A DNA stretch of 48,668 nucleotides from Senegalia massiliensis. Its GTDB lineage: Bacteria > Bacillota > Clostridia > Tissierellales > SIT17. The notes beneath the pieces were generated by a model, which did not search any database, was not told the DNA's origin, and saw nothing but the letters and a program-made list of their open reading frames with translations. The stretch covers positions 1 to 48,668 of the forward strand of contig NZ_QXXA01000018.1 in assembly GCF_009911265.1 (NCBI RefSeq), in the 5' to 3' direction. A program made the position numbers and the translations under genes. Below are positions 172 through 43,948 of this stretch, in pieces; the stretch's first letter is position 1, and each line of letters starts with the position of its first letter.

Positions 172-651
172 ATGAATACGATTGAGACTTTTAATAAAGG
201 ATTATCTTTTGATGAATTTTTAAATAGTTCAGAACCAAAATATAAAGATGCTACATTAGATTTTTATAATAATATAGAATTAGGACAAGATTTAACTTCA
301 CAAATTAAGAATATAGACAAAGAAATAAATATATTAGTTTGTGCTGAACTTTGGTGTCCCGATTGTATAGTAAATGTTCCAGCTGTACAAATATTTAATA
401 AATTAAATGAAAGTATAAAGATATCTATTATAGAAAAAGATGGATATGAAGATGAATTTTCTAAAATACCTACTTTTATAATTTATGATAATAAGTTTAA
501 TGAATTAGGAAGGTTTATAGAAAGGCCAAAAGTTATAAAAAAGATAGAAAATGAAGGAACACAACCCGAAATTATTGTGGCAAAAAAGCAATATAGAAAA
601 GGAAAGTATATCTTAGATACGGTACAAGATATATTAGATATAATAAAATAA
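172..651 (+). CDS. Thioredoxin-family protein (Thioredoxin_9-like)
   Basis: This 159-residue protein has no signal peptide, so it is cytosolic. It carries a redox-active CxxC as W61-C62-P63-D64-C65, followed by a predicted thioredoxin-fold pattern with a likely cis-Pro in the segment KIPTFIIYD near residue 100. The WCPDC motif and the long helical N-terminus resemble the small thioredoxin-like proteins of Firmicutes (Pfam Thioredoxin_9) rather than canonical TrxA (WCGPC). The role is probably thiol-disulfide exchange; the partner is unknown. An AGGAGG at 161-166 fixes the ATG. It lies 28 bp ahead of the glycosidase-like gene and may share its transcript. Family is fairly sure, substrate is not. 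Confidence 0.8.
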   Translation: MNTIETFNKGLSFDEFLNSSEPKYKDATLDFYNNIELGQDLTSQIKNIDKEINILVCAELWCPDCIVNVPAVQIFNKLNESIKISIIEKDGYEDEFSKIPTFIIYDNKFNELGRFIERPKVIKKIENEGTQPEIIVAKKQYRKGKYILDTVQDILDIIK

Positions 652-679
652 TATTAAATATAGTATAAAGGAGAATAAT

Positions 680-1876
680 ATGAATAACATAAGAAAAAAA
701 GTAGTAACAAGTGGTTTAATTTTAGGCTTATCATTTTCAGCTTTTACTTTCTCATTTATGCCAAATAAAGTTATTGCAGATGAAAACAAATTTACTAATA
801 TAAATGAAGATGGGTACATATCTCAGCCATCTACAGATTGGGGTTTATATAAGCAAGATAAAAAAGTAAAAGGTATATTTGTAACAGGACATTCATATGG
901 ACATCCAACTAAATATAATGAATTATTAGACTTAGCTAATAGAACTGAGATAAATTCAATGGTTATTGATGTAAAAGATGATGGAGGAATGCTTTCATAT
1001 AAATCTGATGTACCTCTTGCAATAGAAGCTGGAGCTAATGAAGTTGTTATAATGAATGATAGGGATTTTTTTAGTAAACGAATGAAAGAAATTATTGATA
1101 ATGACATATATCCAATAGCAAGAATAGTTACTTTTAAAGATAAAGTTATTGGATCTGCTAGACCTGATTTAGCTATAAAGAATAAATCAGGAGGAGTTTG
1201 GAGAGATAACAAAGGTAATGCATGGTTAGATCCGTATAATAAAGATTCGTGGGAATATCCAATTCAATTAGCAGAAGAAGCAGCACTTATGGGATTTAAA
1301 GAAATACAATTTGACTATGTAAGATTTCCTACTGATGGAGATAGAGGAAATATAGATTATGGACAAGCAGGAAAAGATAAATCTAAAGCGGATGCTATAA
1401 AAGAATTTTTAGATTATGCAAGAGAGAGACTTCATGATAAGGGCGTAGTTGTATCAGCAGATGTTTTTGGAGATATAATAGCAGTTAAAGGAGATTCTAC
1501 AATAGGTCAACAGCTAGAGTTACTAGGTGCAAATACTGATATTCTAAGTCCCATGGTTTATCCATCACATTATGGATTAGGGTTCTATGGTGTAGATTAT
1601 CCTGATACTAAACCTTATGAAATAGTAAATAAAGCTATGGATCAAGCTGTAGAAAGATTAGACACTATACCTAAAGAAGAAAGAGCTAAAATAAGACCAT
1701 GGTTACAAGATTTTTCTGCCCCTTGGCTTAAAAGTGCATATGGTTCTAATTATATAACATATGGTCCTGAACAAGTTAGAGCTCAGATAAAGGCTACTTA
1801 TGATTCAGGTCTTGAAGAATGGATACTATGGAATGCTGCAAATAGATATACAGAAGGTGCTTTAGAAAAAGAATAA
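680..1876 (+). CDS. Secreted putative glycoside hydrolase (DUF4015 / GH-like TIM barrel)
   Basis: This 398-residue protein has an N-terminal signal peptide: a basic start, a hydrophobic core at about residues 11-27 and a likely cut after VIA near residue 33. The remainder looks like the putative glycosyl hydrolase family DUF4015, with the strand motif VIDVKDDGG at 95-103, an acidic-aromatic strand end FDYVRFP at 211-217, and a C-terminal barrel closing at EEWILWNA. It is probably exported to the wall or medium and acts on a polysaccharide, but no substrate can be deduced. The AAAGGAG ribosome binding site precedes the ATG by 7 bases. Possible co-transcription with the thioredoxin-like gene is inference from the short spacing. 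Confidence 0.8.
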   Translation: MNNIRKKVVTSGLILGLSFSAFTFSFMPNKVIADENKFTNINEDGYISQPSTDWGLYKQDKKVKGIFVTGHSYGHPTKYNELLDLANRTEINSMVIDVKDDGGMLSYKSDVPLAIEAGANEVVIMNDRDFFSKRMKEIIDNDIYPIARIVTFKDKVIGSARPDLAIKNKSGGVWRDNKGNAWLDPYNKDSWEYPIQLAEEAALMGFKEIQFDYVRFPTDGDRGNIDYGQAGKDKSKADAIKEFLDYARERLHDKGVVVSADVFGDIIAVKGDSTIGQQLELLGANTDILSPMVYPSHYGLGFYGVDYPDTKPYEIVNKAMDQAVERLDTIPKEERAKIRPWLQDFSAPWLKSAYGSNYITYGPEQVRAQIKATYDSGLEEWILWNAANRYTEGALEKE

Positions 1877-1954
1877 GTTAATTTAATTAATAAGTATTGC
1901 TATTAATATAAAGTCATGATAAAATACTATATGTAGTAATAAAAATAAAAATAT

Positions 1955-2000
1955 ACACAAAATATTGTGTATATTTTGTTTTTGCCCATATATATAGGGT
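1955..2000 (+). promoter_or_regulatory. Tandem NrdR-box-like operators upstream of nrdJ
   Basis: The palindrome ACACAAAATATTGTGT (1955-1970) matches the published NrdR-box consensus aCACwAtATaTwGtGt at 15 of 16 positions. A second, weaker site CCCATATATATAGGGT (1985-2000) matches at 12 of 16. Their centres are 30 bp apart, about three helical turns, which is the phased arrangement known for NrdR, the repressor of ribonucleotide reductase genes. The sites sit 35-80 bp before the nrdJ start. The first is also the core of a 13-bp AT-rich hairpin (1948-1977) that could terminate the upstream gene; both uses are possible. Confidence 0.7.
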
Positions 2001-2034
2001 AAAATATATTATATTAAGATTTAGGAGGTTTGTC

Positions 2035-3171
2035 ATGATTAGTGTAATGAAAAGAGATAAATCTTTGGTACCTTTTAATGCAAATAAAATTAAAAGAGCT
2101 ATAGAAAATGCTATGGCAGAAACAAAAAAAGGTATAGATGAAGATTTAAGTAAAACAATTACTGATAGTATTGAAGAAAAAATACTTCAAAGAGATATGA
2201 ATGTATTTGTAGAAGATATACAAGATATGGTAGAGCATGAACTGATGGATAGCCCTAGAAAAGATGTAGCAAAAAGGTACATAATATATAGATTTGAAAA
2301 GGGTAAAAGAAGATCATCAAAGAAAAAAGAGGTACGTTTACTCACAGATGATTTTATAAGTGAATATAAACATAAACCATCGCCTATGAAACAATTAGGA
2401 GAATTTATATATTATAGAACATATTCTAGATGGATTCCAGAAGAAAGTAGACGTGAGTATTGGTGGGAAACTGTAAGACGTGCTGTAGAATATAATTGTA
2501 GCCTTGTACCTACTACAAGAGAAGAGGCAGAAAAATTATATGATAATATATATAATTTAAGACAATTTTTATCTGGTAGAACATTCTGGGTAGGTAATAC
2601 TCCAGTTGCAAAACATTACCCTATGGCTAATTATAATTGTTCATTCCAAGTAATAGAGGACTTTGAATCATTTAGAGATTTATTTTATCTTCTAATGGTA
2701 GGTTCTGGAGTAGGAGTAAGAGTGTTAAGAGATGACGTAAAGCTTTTACCAAAAGTAAGATCAAATTATGAACTTATAAATGAAGATTATACACCAATTC
2801 CTAAACATGAGAGAGAAGATAGCACAAGTCTTGAATTTTTCCACAATGATACTGCAAAAATTATTGTAGGAGATAGTAAAGAAGGATGGGTTCAATCTTT
2901 AGATTATTACTTTAAACTTATTTCAAGTAATGAATATAGAAATATAACTACAATAATAGTAAACTATGATAATGTAAGACCACAAGGAGAAAAACTTAAA
3001 ACATTTGGTGGTACTGCTAGTGGACATCAAAGTCTTAAAAATATGTTCTCTAAAATAGATAAAGTTATAAACAAATTAGGAATTATATTTGGAGAGAAAA
3101 AGATAAAACTTAGACCAATTGATTGCTTAGATATAGCTAATATAATTGGAGAAAATGTAGTTGTTGGTGGT
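2035..3171 (+). CDS. nrdJ: Class II (adenosylcobalamin-dependent) ribonucleotide reductase, exon 1
   Basis: Exon 1 encodes residues 1-379 of a 783-residue class II ribonucleotide reductase, which reduces ribonucleotides using adenosylcobalamin as radical source. Residues 1-95 form an ATP-cone allosteric domain (start MISVMKRDKSLVPFNANKIK). The barrel follows, with the first redox cysteine at C202 (NYNCSFQ). The segment DIANIIGENVVVGG at the end is normally followed directly by VRRTAEI, which is exactly how exon 2 starts. Unspliced, the frame runs only 7 codons into the intron and stops at 3195. The last exon base is T3171, as group I splicing requires. AGGAGG at 2023-2028 sets the ATG. Neighbours are the NrdR-like boxes upstream and dut downstream. 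Confidence 0.93.
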
Positions 3172-4216
3172 AAACTTTCATATGCTTCCAACTAAAAAAA
3201 CTCTTTTAATTCATGGGAACTCCTTTTTAAAAGGACAATCATGAGCCAAGCCTATAAATTACTTCATCTCTATCACAAATCGGAGGTGAAAATGTGCCAG
3301 AAAAGAAATTTTATGTATATGAATGGTTTATAATTGATACATTTGAGATTTTTTATGTTGGAAAAGGTACAGAATTAAGAAGGTTTGAATTACACAATCG
3401 TAGTAAATACTTCATGAATATTTATAACAAATATAATTGTGCTGTTCGTCTTTATAAACAAAAGTTAACTAATGAAGAAGCTTGTAAAGAAGAAATAGAA
3501 AGAATAGCTGATTTAAAAGCTATAGGTCAAGCAAAGTGTAATTTTACTAATGGAGGTACAGGATTTGCCGAAGGTTTTTTAAATCCTACAGCACAAAATC
3601 CTCACTATGGGGATAAAAATGGTATGAGAACACAAAATATAGATTTTTCTGGTGAAAACAATCCTTTCTATGGTAAGAGACATAATGAAGAAACAAAAGA
3701 AAGAATTTCTAAGAATAGAAGGGGAAAAGGCGCTAGATTTGGAAAAGATAATCCTATGTATAAAAATGGAATTCTTATTGAAGGTGAAAAGAATGGGATG
3801 TTTGGCAAAAAAGGATTTAATCATCCAAATTCTAAAATGTATGAAATTACATATTCACCTGACAAAAAAGAAATTTTAACATACAAAGAATGTGAAAAAA
3901 AGTTTGGAATAGCTTTTTCAAGAATCTATATGAATGGTGGAATACTTAATTATAAAAAGAAAACGCCAAATTCAGTTTATGAAGGTTTAGAAATAAAGCG
4001 ATTGAAGTAAATTATAGGAAGGTGCAACGACCATCGAAAGCATAGCTAAAAAGCTAATAAGCGAGTAGAGTAGGGCCAAGTGGTGGGTGAGAATCCCTTA
4101 AATCGAAACGGAGAGGGCAAAATTATTTTGTCAAGATATGGTCTGAACTATATGGTAACATATAGCAGTAGTTAATTCTACGGGGTATGTATAACGAACA
4201 TACTTGAACATAATTG
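3172..4216 (+). ncRNA. Group I self-splicing intron in nrdJ (1045 nt) carrying a homing-endonuclease ORF
   Basis: The boundaries follow from the protein (GG|VRRTAE) and from group I rules: 5' exon ends in T3171, intron ends in G4216. Core pairings can be read directly. P1 is 5' exon 3163-3171 with guide sequence 3184-3192 (GCTTCCAAC), giving the expected terminal U-G wobble and one U-U mismatch. P4 is 3210-3215 with 3240-3245. P5 is 3221-3227 with 3229-3235. P7 is 4029-4034 (GACCAT) with 4138-4143 (ATGGTC). A P9-type hairpin with a GTAA loop lies at 4148-4165. The Q-like box ATGAGCCAAGCC (3241-3252) and the S-like box AAGATATGGTCT (4133-4144) are typical. The endonuclease ORF lies between the Q and R elements, in the P6 region, as in the T4 td intron. 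Splicing restores one continuous 783-codon frame. The subgroup (IA-like) is inference. Confidence 0.9.
3294..4010 (+). CDS. Intron-encoded GIY-YIG homing endonuclease with NUMOD3 repeats
   Basis: This 238-residue protein has an N-terminal GIY-YIG nuclease fold: the GIY half is YVYEWF (7-12), the YIG half is FYVGKG (20-25), the following conserved arginines are R29-R30, and an acidic stretch EEACKEEIERI lies near residue 70. Next come short NUMOD3-type DNA-binding motifs (NPFYGKRHNEETKERISKN, then NPMYK and NGMFGKK), like I-TevI-type enzymes. It is expected to cut intron-less nrdJ alleles and so spread the intron. The start is GTG at 3294, fixed by GGAGGTG at 3282-3288; the ATG two bases earlier is in another frame. 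The ORF appears intact, so the intron may still be mobile. Confidence 0.9.
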   Translation: MPEKKFYVYEWFIIDTFEIFYVGKGTELRRFELHNRSKYFMNIYNKYNCAVRLYKQKLTNEEACKEEIERIADLKAIGQAKCNFTNGGTGFAEGFLNPTAQNPHYGDKNGMRTQNIDFSGENNPFYGKRHNEETKERISKNRRGKGARFGKDNPMYKNGILIEGEKNGMFGKKGFNHPNSKMYEITYSPDKKEILTYKECEKKFGIAFSRIYMNGGILNYKKKTPNSVYEGLEIKRLK

Positions 4217-5431
4217 GTTAGAAGAACAGCAGAAATAGTATTAGTAGATCCAGAAGATAAAGAAGCAATAGATGCAAAAACAAATCTATATAAACAAATT
4301 GATGGTCAATGGATAGTTGATAAAGATATAATCCATAGACAAATGAGTAATAACTCAATATACTATAAGGAAAAACCAAGTCGTGAACGATTACATTGGC
4401 AATTAGAAAAAATGAGATATTCAGGAGAACCAGGTTGGGTAAATGAAGTAGCTGGTGCAAAGAGAAGACCAAATATGAATGGAGTTAATCCATGTGGAGA
4501 AATATTACTTGACTCTAGAGGATTATGTAATCTAACTACTATTAATGTATATTCATTTGTAGATAAAAATGGAAATCTTGATATAGAAGGATTAAAAGAA
4601 GCTCAAAGGTTATCTGCAAGAGCAGGTTATAGAATGACTTGTGTAGAATTAGAACTTCCAAAATGGGATAGAGTTCAACAAAGAGATAAGCTTATAGGTT
4701 GCTCCTTAACTGGATGGCAAGATATGGTTAATGCTACAAATATGGATAGTGATGAACAAGCAAGAATATTAAGGGAACTTAAAGATGCAGCTAAAGAAGC
4801 TTCAACAGAATATGCTGAAGATATAGGTGAAAATGTTCCATTACTTGTTACAACAGTAAAACCTGAAGGTACACTTAGTCAATTACCAACTGTTTCAAGT
4901 GGTGTACATTACTCACACTCTCCGTATTATATAAGACGTGTAAGAATAAATGCAGATGATCCACTTGTTAAGGTATGTGAAGAATTAGAATATCCAATAC
5001 ATCCAGAAGTAGGTCAAGATTATGATACATGTACTACTAAAGTTATAGAATTTCCTGTTAAATCTCCTGAAGGAAAAACTAAGTATGACGTATCTGCAAT
5101 AGAACAACTAGAAAATTATAAACTATTTATGGAGAATTATGTAGAACATAACTGTTCAATAACTGTTCATGTAAGAGATTATGAATGGGATGAAGTTGAA
5201 GAGTGGGTATGGAATAATTGGGATGATGTAGTAGCTTTATCCTTCTTATCATTAGATGATAATTTCTATGAATTACTTCCATATGAAGCAATTGAAGAAG
5301 AAGAATATAATAGAAGAATGTCAGAAATGAAACCATTTGTTCCATCATTATTAAGCAAATATGAAAAAGAACAAACTGAATTTGATATTGGAGATGAAAG
5401 TTGTGATACTGGAGTATGTCCAATAAGGTAA
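4217..5431 (+). CDS. nrdJ: Class II ribonucleotide reductase, exon 2
   Basis: Exon 2 encodes residues 380-783 and begins VRRTAEIVLVDPEDKEAID. It holds the catalytic core motif NPCGEI, with the thiyl-radical cysteine at C472 and the general-base glutamate at E474, and the C-terminal redox pair C775 and C780 in DESCDTGVCPIR, which is regenerated by thioredoxin-type reductants. Every diagnostic residue of adenosylcobalamin-dependent ribonucleoside-triphosphate reductase is therefore present across the two exons. An independent start here is unlikely: the only in-frame upstream initiator is a TTG at 4214 inside the intron end with no ribosome binding site. The stop is 13 bp before the dut start, suggesting co-transcription. 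Confidence 0.93.
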   Translation, partial: VRRTAEIVLVDPEDKEAIDAKTNLYKQIDGQWIVDKDIIHRQMSNNSIYYKEKPSRERLHWQLEKMRYSGEPGWVNEVAGAKRRPNMNGVNPCGEILLDSRGLCNLTTINVYSFVDKNGNLDIEGLKEAQRLSARAGYRMTCVELELPKWDRVQQRDKLIGCSLTGWQDMVNATNMDSDEQARILRELKDAAKEASTEYAEDIGENVPLLVTTVKPEGTLSQLPTVSSGVHYSHSPYYIRRVRINADDPLVKVCEELEYPIHPEVGQDYDTCTTKVIEFPVKSPEGKTKYDVSAIEQLENYKLFMENYVEHNCSITVHVRDYEWDEVEEWVWNNWDDVVALSFLSLDDNFYELLPYEAIEEEEYNRRMSEMKPFVPSLLSKYEKEQTEFDIGDESCDTGVCPIR

Positions 5432-5444
5432 TGGAGGAATACAA

Positions 5445-5903
5445 TTGAAGGTAAGAGGATTTGAATTAGTAGATGATGAATTTAGAGTTCATAAAGAAAA
5501 AGAAATAAATATTCCCTTAAGGGCTAGTACTGGTTCTGCAGGATATGATATATATACTCCTGAAAAATTTATTATTAAGCCTCAAGAGACCAAAATAATA
5601 TGGACAGATATAAAGGCTTATATGTTAGACAATGAAGTGTTACAAGTGTATATAAGAAGTTCTATAGGTATTAAAAAAGGACTTGTATTAGCAAATGGCA
5701 CTGGAATAATAGATAAAGACTATTATTCCAATCCATCTAATGATGGAAATATAGGAGTTGCTATTACTAATATTTCTAAAAAAACAGTAGAAATAAATCA
5801 AAATGAAAGAATAGCTCAAGGATTATTCATAAATTATCTTTTAACAGATAATGACAACACAAAAAACAAAAGAATTGGTGGAATAGGAAGTACTGGAAAA
5901 TAA
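5445..5903 (+). CDS. dut: dUTP diphosphatase (dUTPase family)
   Basis: The enzyme hydrolyses dUTP to dUMP and PPi, keeping uracil out of DNA and feeding dTMP synthesis. All five trimeric-dUTPase motifs are visible in 152 residues: ASTGSAGYDIY (motif 1), RSSIGIKKGL (2), GTGIIDKDYYSNPSNDGNIG (3, with a small insertion compared with the usual GVIDxDYxGE), ERIAQGLF (4) and the glycine-rich C-terminal GGIGSTGK (5). The start is TTG at 5445 behind GGAGG (5433-5437). It is 13 bp downstream of nrdJ, a logical nucleotide-metabolism pair probably sharing its NrdR-type control. The short motif-3 insertion might affect substrate preference, but the overall call is solid. Confidence 0.88.
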   Translation: MKVRGFELVDDEFRVHKEKEINIPLRASTGSAGYDIYTPEKFIIKPQETKIIWTDIKAYMLDNEVLQVYIRSSIGIKKGLVLANGTGIIDKDYYSNPSNDGNIGVAITNISKKTVEINQNERIAQGLFINYLLTDNDNTKNKRIGGIGSTGK

Positions 5904-30149: not shown

Positions 30150-30164
30150 ATAAACAAATTGAAT

Positions 30165-30350
30165 ATAGCTATATTGGTACAATTTAATGTTAAATTGTTT
30201 AAAAGGGAAGTTCGGTGAAATACCGACACGGTCCCGCCACTGTAATAGATAGAATCTTATGAATACCACTATGATGAACATGGGAAGGTATAAGATTTGT
30301 TATTCTTAAGTCAGGAGACCTGCCAATAGTGTAAGCGCTGTTTATTACTC
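30165..30350 (+). ncRNA. Cobalamin (B12) riboswitch
   Basis: The conserved elements appear in order: the GGGAAGTTCGGTGAAA region with a GTTCGGTG..TACCGAC stem (30206-30229), CGGTCCCGCCACTGTAA (30229-30245), and the B12 box AAGTCAGGAGACCTGCC (30308-30324). This is an adenosylcobalamin-class aptamer. A terminator follows at 30382-30408, so B12 binding probably shuts off the CGGC-btuFCD operon by premature termination. Outer boundaries are approximate. Confidence 0.95.
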
Positions 30351-40184: not shown

Positions 40185-40400
40185 ATTTAAAAGCATTGAA
40201 GGAAAATAGTAAGTATTTATGATTCAAAGAGAGAAAACTCTAGGCTGTAAAGTTTTCATTCCTCTAAATATTGAACCTGTTCCTGAGCTTAAGCAATATT
40301 TGCTTACGGTTTTATATCGTTATAGTCTAGAGTGGACTTTTTATAGTCAACTAGGGTGGTACCGCGGAATATCCGTCCCTTTTTAGGGGCGGTTTTTTAT
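40185..40400 (+). ncRNA. T-box leader of proS (proline-type)
   Basis: The T-box sequence AGGGTGGTACCGCGG (40353-40367) is followed by a terminator (CCGTCCCT / AGGGGCGG, 40373-40392, then TTTTTT), the standard antitermination layout. The AGTA motif near 40208 marks the base of stem I. Two CCT triplets (in GAACCTGTTCCTGAG, 40271-40285) are candidates for the proline specifier. Uncharged tRNA-Pro would favour read-through into proS. The specifier choice is inference. Confidence 0.92.
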
Positions 40401-42230: not shown

Positions 42231-43718
42231 ATGAGTAATATTAGAGTAAGGTTTGCTCCAAGTCCTACAGGATTTGTTCACATAGGGAGTCTTAGAACGG
42301 CTCTATATAATTATTTATTTTCTAGAAACAATAATGGAAAATATATTTTAAGAATAGAAGATACAGATAGAACTAGATTTGTAGAAGGTGCTTTAGAAAA
42401 CTTAATAGATTCTATGGAATGGGCAGGAATAACACATGATGAAGGTGTATTTGTAGAAAATGGTAAAATTGTAGAAAAAGGTGAGTATGGTCCATATACC
42501 CAATCTAAAAGATTAGATATATATAAGAAATATATAGATATATTAATAGAAAAAGGGTATGCATATTATTGTTTTTGTTCAAAAGAAAGATTAGATAAAG
42601 TGCGTGAAGAACAAAAAAGAGATGGTAAAATACCAAAATATGATGGATACTGTAGAAGTTTGGATAAAAGAGAAGCAGAAATTAGAATAGCAAATGGTGA
42701 AGATTATGTAGTAAGACTTAAATTGCCTGAAAATGAAAATATAATATTTGATGATTTAGTAAGAGGAAAAGTTACTATTAATACAAGTGATATGGATGAT
42801 CAAGTTCTTATGAAGTCAGATGGATATCCAACATATCATTTTGCAGTAGTAGTGGATGATCATTTGATGAATATATCACATGTGGTTAGAGGTGAAGAAT
42901 GGCTACCATCTACGCCTAAACATGTATTTATGTTCCAAGCTTTTGGATGGAAAGCCCCAACATATGTGCATTTGCCTACAGTTTTAAATAAAGATAAGAA
43001 AAAATTATCTAAAAGACAAGGTGATGTGTCTGTATCAGATTTCAAAGAAAAAGGATATCTTCCTGAAGCATTAGTTAACTATTTGGCTTTAGTTGGCTGG
43101 AGTCCAGAATCAAATGAAGAAATATTTTCAATTAATGAACTAGAAGAAGAATTTTCATTTGATAGAGTATCAAAAACTGGTGGAGTATTTGATATAGATA
43201 AATTAAATTGGATAAATGGTCAATATATAAGAGAAGAAAGTCTAGAAAGAATAACAGATTTATCAATACCTTTCTTAAAAGAGGTAGGATATATTGATGA
43301 TAATGATGTGGAAAATAGATATGATTGGATAAAAACTCTAGTTTCTACTGTAAAAGAAGATCTTTCTTATCTTTCTGAAATAAAAGAAAAAGCAAATATA
43401 TATTTTAATTATGAAATTGATTTAGAAGATGAAAAAGTATTAGAAACATTAAAAGGAGAACAAGTTCCATTACTTTTAAATGCTTTTAGAGAAGAATTAG
43501 AGCAAATAGATGAAATAGAGGAAGAGTTTTCAAAAACAATAATCAAAAAAATTCAAAAGAAAACTAAAGTTAAAGGTAAAAATTTGTTTATGCCAATAAG
43601 AGCTATGCTTACAGGGCAACTTCATGGACCTGAAATGGTAAATATAATTTTAGTTTTAGGGAAACAAAATATACTTACTCGCATAGAATATGTAGAAAAT
43701 AATATTTTAAATAATTAA
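42231..43718 (+). CDS. gltX: Glutamyl-tRNA synthetase
   Basis: 495 residues, class I synthetase: [15 protein letters not shown] (HIGH region, 10-24), [19 protein letters not shown], and the KMSKS-type loop KLSKRQGD (about 257). C-terminal helical anticodon-binding domain complete. The start is ATG 42231 behind TGGAGGT (42219-42225), not the in-frame ATG at 42192. Whether it is discriminating or also charges tRNA-Gln cannot be decided here. It follows proS by 84 bp. Confidence 0.95.
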
Positions 43719-43734
43719 AAAGTAATGATAAGGA

Positions 43735-43948
43735 AAAGTAAATTTATACTACCTAACAGAGAATAATCCCTAGGCTGAAAGGATTAAGGGATGTATAGAT
43801 TGAAAATGCACCTTTGAACTTTTTGTTTGAAAAAAGTAAAACAAAACGTTTGTTACGTTATAACTATTAGAGATAAGCTAAATGCTTAAATTAGAGTGGA
43901 ACCACGGAAAAACCGTCTCTATACATTTGTATAGAGGCGGTTTTTTAA
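43735..43948 (+). ncRNA. T-box leader of cysE-cysS (cysteine-type)
   Basis: The T-box AGAGTGGAACCACGG (43893-43907) and the terminator CCGTCTCTATAC / GTATAGAGGCGG (43913-43940, then TTTTTT) are clear. The specifier is most likely TGC (43807-43809, context AAATGCACC), i.e. cysteine, in agreement with cysE and cysS downstream. Uncharged tRNA-Cys would thus induce both cysteine biosynthesis and charging. An ATG at 43882 in frame with cysE lies inside this leader and is not a start. Confidence 0.93.

Follow-up and report, generated by a model that had tools for sequence, protein, structure and literature searches.

The nrdJ gene of Senegalia massiliensis, which encodes a B12-dependent ribonucleoside-triphosphate reductase (RTPR), is interrupted by a 1045-nt insert that is almost certainly a group I intron. 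The wider proposition – that this is a phage-type mobile intron, able both to splice and to home, resident in a chromosomal gene – is in our judgement probable, and rests on comparison of sequences. The gene lies within positions 1 to 48,668 of contig NZ_QXXA01000018.1 (assembly GCF_009911265.1), a stretch of 48,668 nt referred to below as the window. Coordinates are those of the window, and the gene, its intron and the features within them are on the forward strand.

The insertion in nrdJ

A single nrdJ gene fills positions 2035–5431. Exon 1 (2035–3171) carries the ATP cone, the ribonucleotide reductase (RNR) alpha domain and the insertion domain, and ends in GGTGGT; the insert occupies 3172–4216; exon 2 (4217–5431) begins VRRTAE and contains NPCGEI, GLCNLT and the C-terminal CDTGVC. 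The first frame (2035–3195) reads to VVVGG and then, after KLSYASN, meets a stop seven codons on (3193–3195), with VRRTAE resuming at 4217. Both exons are recognised by TIGR02505, the adenosylcobalamin-dependent RTPR model, of which they match directly adjacent portions (positions 7–276 and 277–724); scanned singly they score 160 and 195.9 bits, each below the cut-off of 340.05. Exon 1 is further defined by the Pfam models ATP-cone, RNR_Alpha and RNR-II_ins_dom. For each exon the closest solved sequence is the RTPR 1l1l (E = 3.8e-25 and 1.1e-26), exon 1 aligning up to its residue 315 (query residue 378/379) and exon 2 from residue 317.

The boundaries of the insert are fixed by comparison with an empty site. 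The intact gene of the nearest congener (locus L005, genome G001) aligns without gaps to the joined exons along 2352 nt, at 97.3% identity (63 mismatches); the insert is exactly absent from it. Neither exon frame contains a stop. The alignment to L005 also takes in the DNA around nrdJ, from position 535 to 5716, which are the limits of that locus. A preliminary description of the window, made from the letters alone, had proposed that nrdJ is split by a 1045-nt group I intron at exactly these boundaries and had suggested a comparison with intron-less relatives: the adjacency of the two exons on TIGR02505 and the gap-free alignment bear it out. We take the locus to be chromosomal rather than part of a prophage because its neighbours are hisC and EF-G, both above curated cut-offs, and a GltP/DctA-like transporter and a dUTPase-like gene, both below them.

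Secondary structure of the intron

Checked base by base, P1, P3–P9, P9.1 and P9.2 can form in canonical order together with the R and S elements. P1 (3163–3192) pairs exon positions 3163–3171 with intron positions 3184–3192, setting a U.G pair at the 5′ splice site; its one U-U mismatch is common to this intron and to three homologues at the same site in viral contigs (L035, L036 and L049). P3 joins 3201–3206 to 4110–4115, and P4 (3210–3215/3240–3245) encloses P5 (3221–3227/3229–3235). P6 joins 3251–3257 to 4012–4018 and holds an endonuclease open reading frame (ORF) in its loop; P7 joins 4029–4034, the R element, to 4138–4143 within the S element AAGATATGGTCTGAAC (4133–4148). P8 is a hairpin at 4116–4132, P9 (4148–4165) is capped by a GTAA loop, and P9.1 (4168–4171/4178–4181) and P9.2 (4185–4190/4198–4203) follow, with a P10 pairing that by eye is short. 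Between the 5′ strand of P7 and the 3′ strand of P3 lies an extra stem region (4035–4109; free fold of 4040–4115), which we take to be the P7.1/P7.2 position, and from these extra stems we presume the intron to be IA-like. The final base is G in all four introns. The U.G pair of P1, together with P4, P5, P7, the GTAA-capped P9 and the terminal G, had been read in the preliminary description and all stand.

The signal exceeds what chance would give, because the 3′ core matches phage DNA and because the three viral contigs share both the intron and its site. The phage resemblance is one of DNA sequence and is seen in 182 records (E ≤ 1e-4); of the 15 matches listed, the best has an E of 2e-13.

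Homologous introns at the same site in viral contigs

In L035, L036 and L049 a viral nrdJ is split at the identical point between GG and VRRTAE, by introns of 1003, 966 and 920 nt that each contain a related endonuclease. L035 and L036 came from an endonuclease search and L049 from an alignment-based one. Core and endonuclease are homologous to those of the window; the differences are that these are viral contigs, that the stretch between P7 and P3 is by eye shorter in all three, that the in-frame stop falls 17–20 codons into the intron rather than seven, and that the nrdJ of L036 also carries an intein.

Differences between the four introns, as counted by eye, are compensatory in several helices. 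P4 reads TTCATG/CATGAG in the window and L035 and ATCGGT/ACCGAG in L036 and L049, with three pairs altered on both strands; one pair of P7 is altered on both strands in all three viral introns relative to the window; one P1 pair, between an exon base and an intron base, is T-A in the window and C-G in L036; and P9 shows one or more compensatory changes in all three viral introns.

As a rule, endonuclease genes evolve more quickly than RNR genes. Between the window and L035, nonetheless, the endonuclease is the more alike (66.4% identity against 52.7% for exon 2), which points to transfer after the host genes had diverged; between L035 and L036 the values are 58.4% and 62.9%. To judge from these identities such a transfer is indicated for L035 only, the other pairs by themselves carrying no such signal.

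In a wider comparison 92 endonuclease loci (L035–L126, some contigs appearing twice, and L042 being the S. massiliensis genome itself) were checked for an adjacent nrdJ. The two genes adjoin in eight: L035/L047, L036/L048, L049, the S. massiliensis locus, L083 and L085. For the remaining 84, the DNA examined contained nothing that matched nrdJ at E ≤ 1e-3. Among the best 80 of at least 461 viral nrdJ loci, three are interrupted at the site and the other 77 continue through it, a ratio that is no frequency, the query alignment having included the three split genes. Of the 77, L162, L169 and L173 count as uninterrupted by their long open frames, the start of the exon having been misplaced in them; L167 is open through the site but close to a contig edge; and more than half are distant (about 28–34% identity).

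Two further arrangements were seen in these viral loci. In L036 (1501–2919) nrdJ carries its intein in addition to the intron (Pfam Intein_splicing 40.9 bits, cut-off 35.8; intein_Cterm 20.7 bits, cut-off 15.6), the intein ending before the C of CSYVT. In L083 (382–2900) and L085 the ORF of a related endonuclease immediately precedes an uninterrupted, distant nrdJ (28% identical), possibly a case of intronless homing beside the same target gene.

The endonuclease encoded in loop L6

The endonuclease gene (3294–4010) has a GTG start preceded by GGAGG and encodes 238 amino acids. It lies in the P6 loop (L6), between the Q and R elements, as had been noted from the letters. NUMOD3 is found at residues 119–139 and is present in 3/3 family members; a profile built from these three finds 1i3j, the DNA-binding domain of I-TevI, at E = 1.1e-4. 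The protein pairs a predicted GIY-YIG-type domain with an I-TevI-like DNA-binding stretch. The N-terminal part is predicted to adopt the GIY-YIG nuclease fold: the structural model aligns with the I-TevI catalytic domain 1mk0 at Z 9.5 (VIA-align; root-mean-square deviation 2.4, 82 residues aligned), with 1ln0 at Z 9.0 and with a UvrC domain at Z 7.7, the same list being topped, in a tie at Z 9.5, by the 5-hydroxymethylcytosine restriction enzyme 9u75. Arg29 and Glu67 are invariant in 15/15 aligned relatives and Asn83 is present, the correspondence of residues having been assigned by eye; Arg, Glu and Asn are catalytic in the GIY-YIG family (PMC2988022).

A candidate hairpin at 3263–3290 would bury the Shine-Dalgarno sequence of the endonuclease gene; it is weak, with a minimum free energy of −9.2 kcal/mol that 21/200 shuffles equal. 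L035 has a similar and better hairpin (5/200 shuffles equal it), and none is present in L036 or L049. As a separate matter, a copy of the homing site serving as an I-TevI-style operator was sought over 139 bases, from upstream of the ORF to within it, and rejected: the best candidate matches 9/20 bases, which 1980/2000 shuffles equal.

Distribution in bacteria

Within the order nrdJ occurs in 45 of 249 genomes, and in 43 of the 44 others the frame is open through the site (in G609 for 32 codons, to the end of the contig). The contig of G602 ends before the site; with that genome left out of the testable set, 43/43 testable relatives are free of the intron. The intron is thus present in one of the four genomes of the genus and in 1/44 testable nrdJ genes of the order, S. 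massiliensis included. Its DNA was found, among the 249 genomes, in S. massiliensis alone, apart from a 46-base piece in G569. A sample of 398 genomes from the phylum contains nrdJ in 10 (E ≤ 1e-40), the other nine being open through the site, and the endonuclease in S. massiliensis alone (1/398, E ≤ 1e-10). Elsewhere the endonuclease has relatives in four phage records (27–33% identity) and as four partial matches in genome contigs (31–46%). The preliminary view that such an insertion is uncommon holds for this order; as a kind of element, however, group I introns within RNR genes are familiar. Gain of the intron within the genus looks recent, given that three congeners are without it.

The base at the splice site

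In the window and in all three viral genes exon 1 ends with the codons GGTGGT. The three congeners have GGAGGA (G001), GGCGGA (G002) and GGTGGA (G003) in the same place, and from −45 to +104 around the site the window differs from G001 at −1 and −4 only. An A at −1 makes the U.G splice-site pair impossible. The change to GGT is the trace expected in the exon either of short-tract co-conversion or of selection that acted on the splice site once the intron was in place. The U at −1 is no proof of co-conversion, because some intron-free relatives also end in T: GGTGGT itself is found in the intron-free locus L028 and in three of the nine intron-free phylum genes (L131, L132 and L136/L137).

Mechanism and alternative explanations

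The structure suggests the following course of events. The transcribed intron would fold, and with an external guanosine cleavage would take place directly behind U3171, where P1 has its U.G pair; U3171 would then be joined to G4217 to give an uninterrupted NrdJ of 783 residues. The endonuclease encoded in L6 would cut intron-free nrdJ near the junction of VVVGG and VRRTAE, and repair from an intron-bearing copy would insert the intron along with some flanking exon sequence. Comparison with the viral contigs suggests that introns of this family have moved between phage and bacterial nrdJ genes, and the gain in S. massiliensis would have brought, or been followed by, the GGT last codon that supplies the U for splicing.

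A number of observations weigh against this account. The search with the Rfam group I intron model (RF00028) that the preliminary description had proposed gave two partial matches (model positions 60–140 at 3211–3297, 20.4 bits; 3968–4165, 23.1 bits); both fall under the cut-off of 50, as do those of L035 and L036, and in L049 nothing was matched at E ≤ 0.1. The endonuclease ORF splits the core; the threshold is one of detection rather than a structural feature. The sixth pair of P7 is mismatched in the viral introns; in L036 P3 and P5 pair imperfectly and no P8 was assigned; and the compensatory changes were counted by eye. For the endonuclease, Foldseek gave no match of the model in the PDB at E ≤ 0.001, the model itself is of moderate quality (mean predicted local distance difference test score 66.5, predicted template modelling score 0.37) and poor in the middle, the Pfam GIY-YIG model matched 0/3 family members at E ≤ 1, and TIGR01453 scored 20.3, far short of its cut-off of 56.05. 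Identities with the other viral introns are close to parity (endonuclease 55.1% and exon 2 50.1% for L036; 47.2% and 49.5% for L049). Finally, T stands at −1 in seven of 28 distinct intron-free genes of the order (34 rows with six repeats) and in four of the nine intron-free phylum genes, and the U at −1 could have arisen by selection after insertion.

The intron might be real but immobile, with an inactive endonuclease and a distribution produced by vertical inheritance or loss. In keeping with this, the genome has just one endonuclease copy and the fold model is only moderate; however, the ORF is intact over 238 codons and retains the putative catalytic residues, the distribution is patchy (one genus member in four, one testable gene of the order, three viral contigs), and the endonuclease outstrips exon 2 in its likeness to L035. 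We consider immobility unlikely. As the one alternative that accepts the intron and excludes mobility, it nonetheless holds our confidence in a mobile element at the level of probable, as do the T-ending intron-free genes of the phylum, which weaken the argument from the splice site.

Building on the mobile intron, one could imagine recent homing between phage and chromosome, in either direction, by an intron that brings its own U to an A-ending site, ties NrdJ to splicing and translation, leaves NrdD free, and so shifts the balance between reductases; as a complete chain of events this strikes us as quite improbable. The genome contains an intact class III NrdD (573.3 bits, above its cut-off, in a 705-aa frame), and no class I RNR or NrdJ_Z exceeded cut-off in it, the assembly being a draft of 53 contigs that is 99% complete. 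The claim made from the letters that nrdJ is essential for DNA synthesis is weakened by this NrdD.

The same claim had led to the suggestion that NrdJ could be controlled at the level of splicing, an idea compatible with a mobile intron. Such control might run through translation, for instance: a ribosome halted at the stop at 3193–3195 would rest on P1. In its favour, that stop follows P1 directly, earlier than in the viral introns, and PMC3984707 discusses such in-frame stops as splicing aids. With two reductases in the genome, regulation of NrdJ by splicing is a guess, and the absence of the intron from all testable relatives in the order speaks against a conserved regulatory role; we rate a control function as very unlikely.

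That nrdJ is simply broken, or made as two polypeptides around an endonuclease cassette that does not splice, as in Aeh1 nrdA, whose separate parts still assemble into an enzyme, is the least credible account: functional split RNR genes lacking a self-splicing intron do exist (PMC3653736), a TTG at 4214 is in frame with exon 2, and NrdD could make loss of nrdJ tolerable, but the ORF is framed by a full ribozyme core that shows compensatory differences when set beside its relatives, the insertion is exact to the base with stop-free exons nearly identical to an intact gene, the start codon before exon 2 is not conserved (TTG, TTG, ATG and ACG in the four introns) and no Shine-Dalgarno sequence is seen there by eye.

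Relation to known introns and significance

The mobile intron that we favour has counterparts. In the td intron of phage T4 the ORF, that of I-TevI, also lies in the P6 loop. The intron of the window shares this position, the predicted catalytic fold (1mk0) and the I-TevI-like DNA-binding stretch; it differs in that it interrupts a bacterial chromosomal gene for a class II RNR, that an operator copy was not found, and that the hairpin burying the ribosome-binding site is weakly supported.

The RIR gene of Nostoc punctiforme encodes a B12-dependent RNR, and its intron is reportedly tied to an insertion sequence (IS) element, to go by the title of Meng et al. 2007. What it shares with the window is the kind of intron, group I, and the type of host gene, a bacterial RNR. 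This Nostoc intron is cited in PMC1995217 and PMC12702839. Phage group I introns in RNR genes, some with endonuclease genes, include those of Twort nrdE and of SPbeta nrdE and nrdF (PMC3653736); they differ from the present case in that the genes are of class I and the Twort endonuclease is of the HNH type. RNRdb reports over 100 curated group I introns (PMC2795772). Searches of the open-licence literature turned up no such intron in class II RNRs of this kind beyond the cyanobacteria. The nrdJ intron belongs to a known kind of element, of which it appears to be a new example.

What the locus offers is a clean natural experiment on homing: near-identical alleles with and without the intron in one genus, a differing base at the splice site, and homologues at the same site in viral contigs. 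Transfer between phage and bacterium thereby becomes directly testable, and so does the choice between co-conversion and later selection as the source of the splice-site U. For annotation, the two apparent fragments are to be read as one NrdJ.

Other elements in the window and genome

The dUTPase-like gene 3′ of nrdJ (5445–5903) recurs in the three congeners and, 46% identical, in L049 (2880–3404); dUTPase-like ORFs are also seen by eye downstream of nrdJ in L035 (5574–6356) and L036 (5368–5895), neither matching the window protein at 1e-5. nrdJ and dut may thus form a module common to phages and bacteria.

An Rfam scan of the window found no cobalamin riboswitch ahead of nrdJ. One is present at 30158–30341, upstream of an F420-0/BtuC-type ABC transporter (30949 onward; best families below cut-offs). 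T-box leaders lie at 40187–40383, before proline--tRNA ligase (40428), and at 43716–43923, overlapping the listed start of cysE (43882).

RF00028 gave further matches in the genome. One, the third (locus L003, 14.2 bits), looks by eye like a terminator and coding DNA and was taken as chance. Another marks a probable second group I intron, of 275 nt, in the T-arm of the transfer-messenger RNA (tmRNA) gene (L001 1190–1806, on contig C1 of the genome; by eye 141330–141604), preceded by GGTTCGAT and followed by TCCCACCGCCTCCACCA; its score of 31.9 bits is under the cut-off, and ARAGORN found no tmRNA in L001. DNA of this intron matches 16 of the 249 genomes of the order, S. massiliensis included (99% in G001), matches being counted wherever in a genome they lie. 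Clostridium botulinum is a known case of an intron in tmRNA (PMC1995217).

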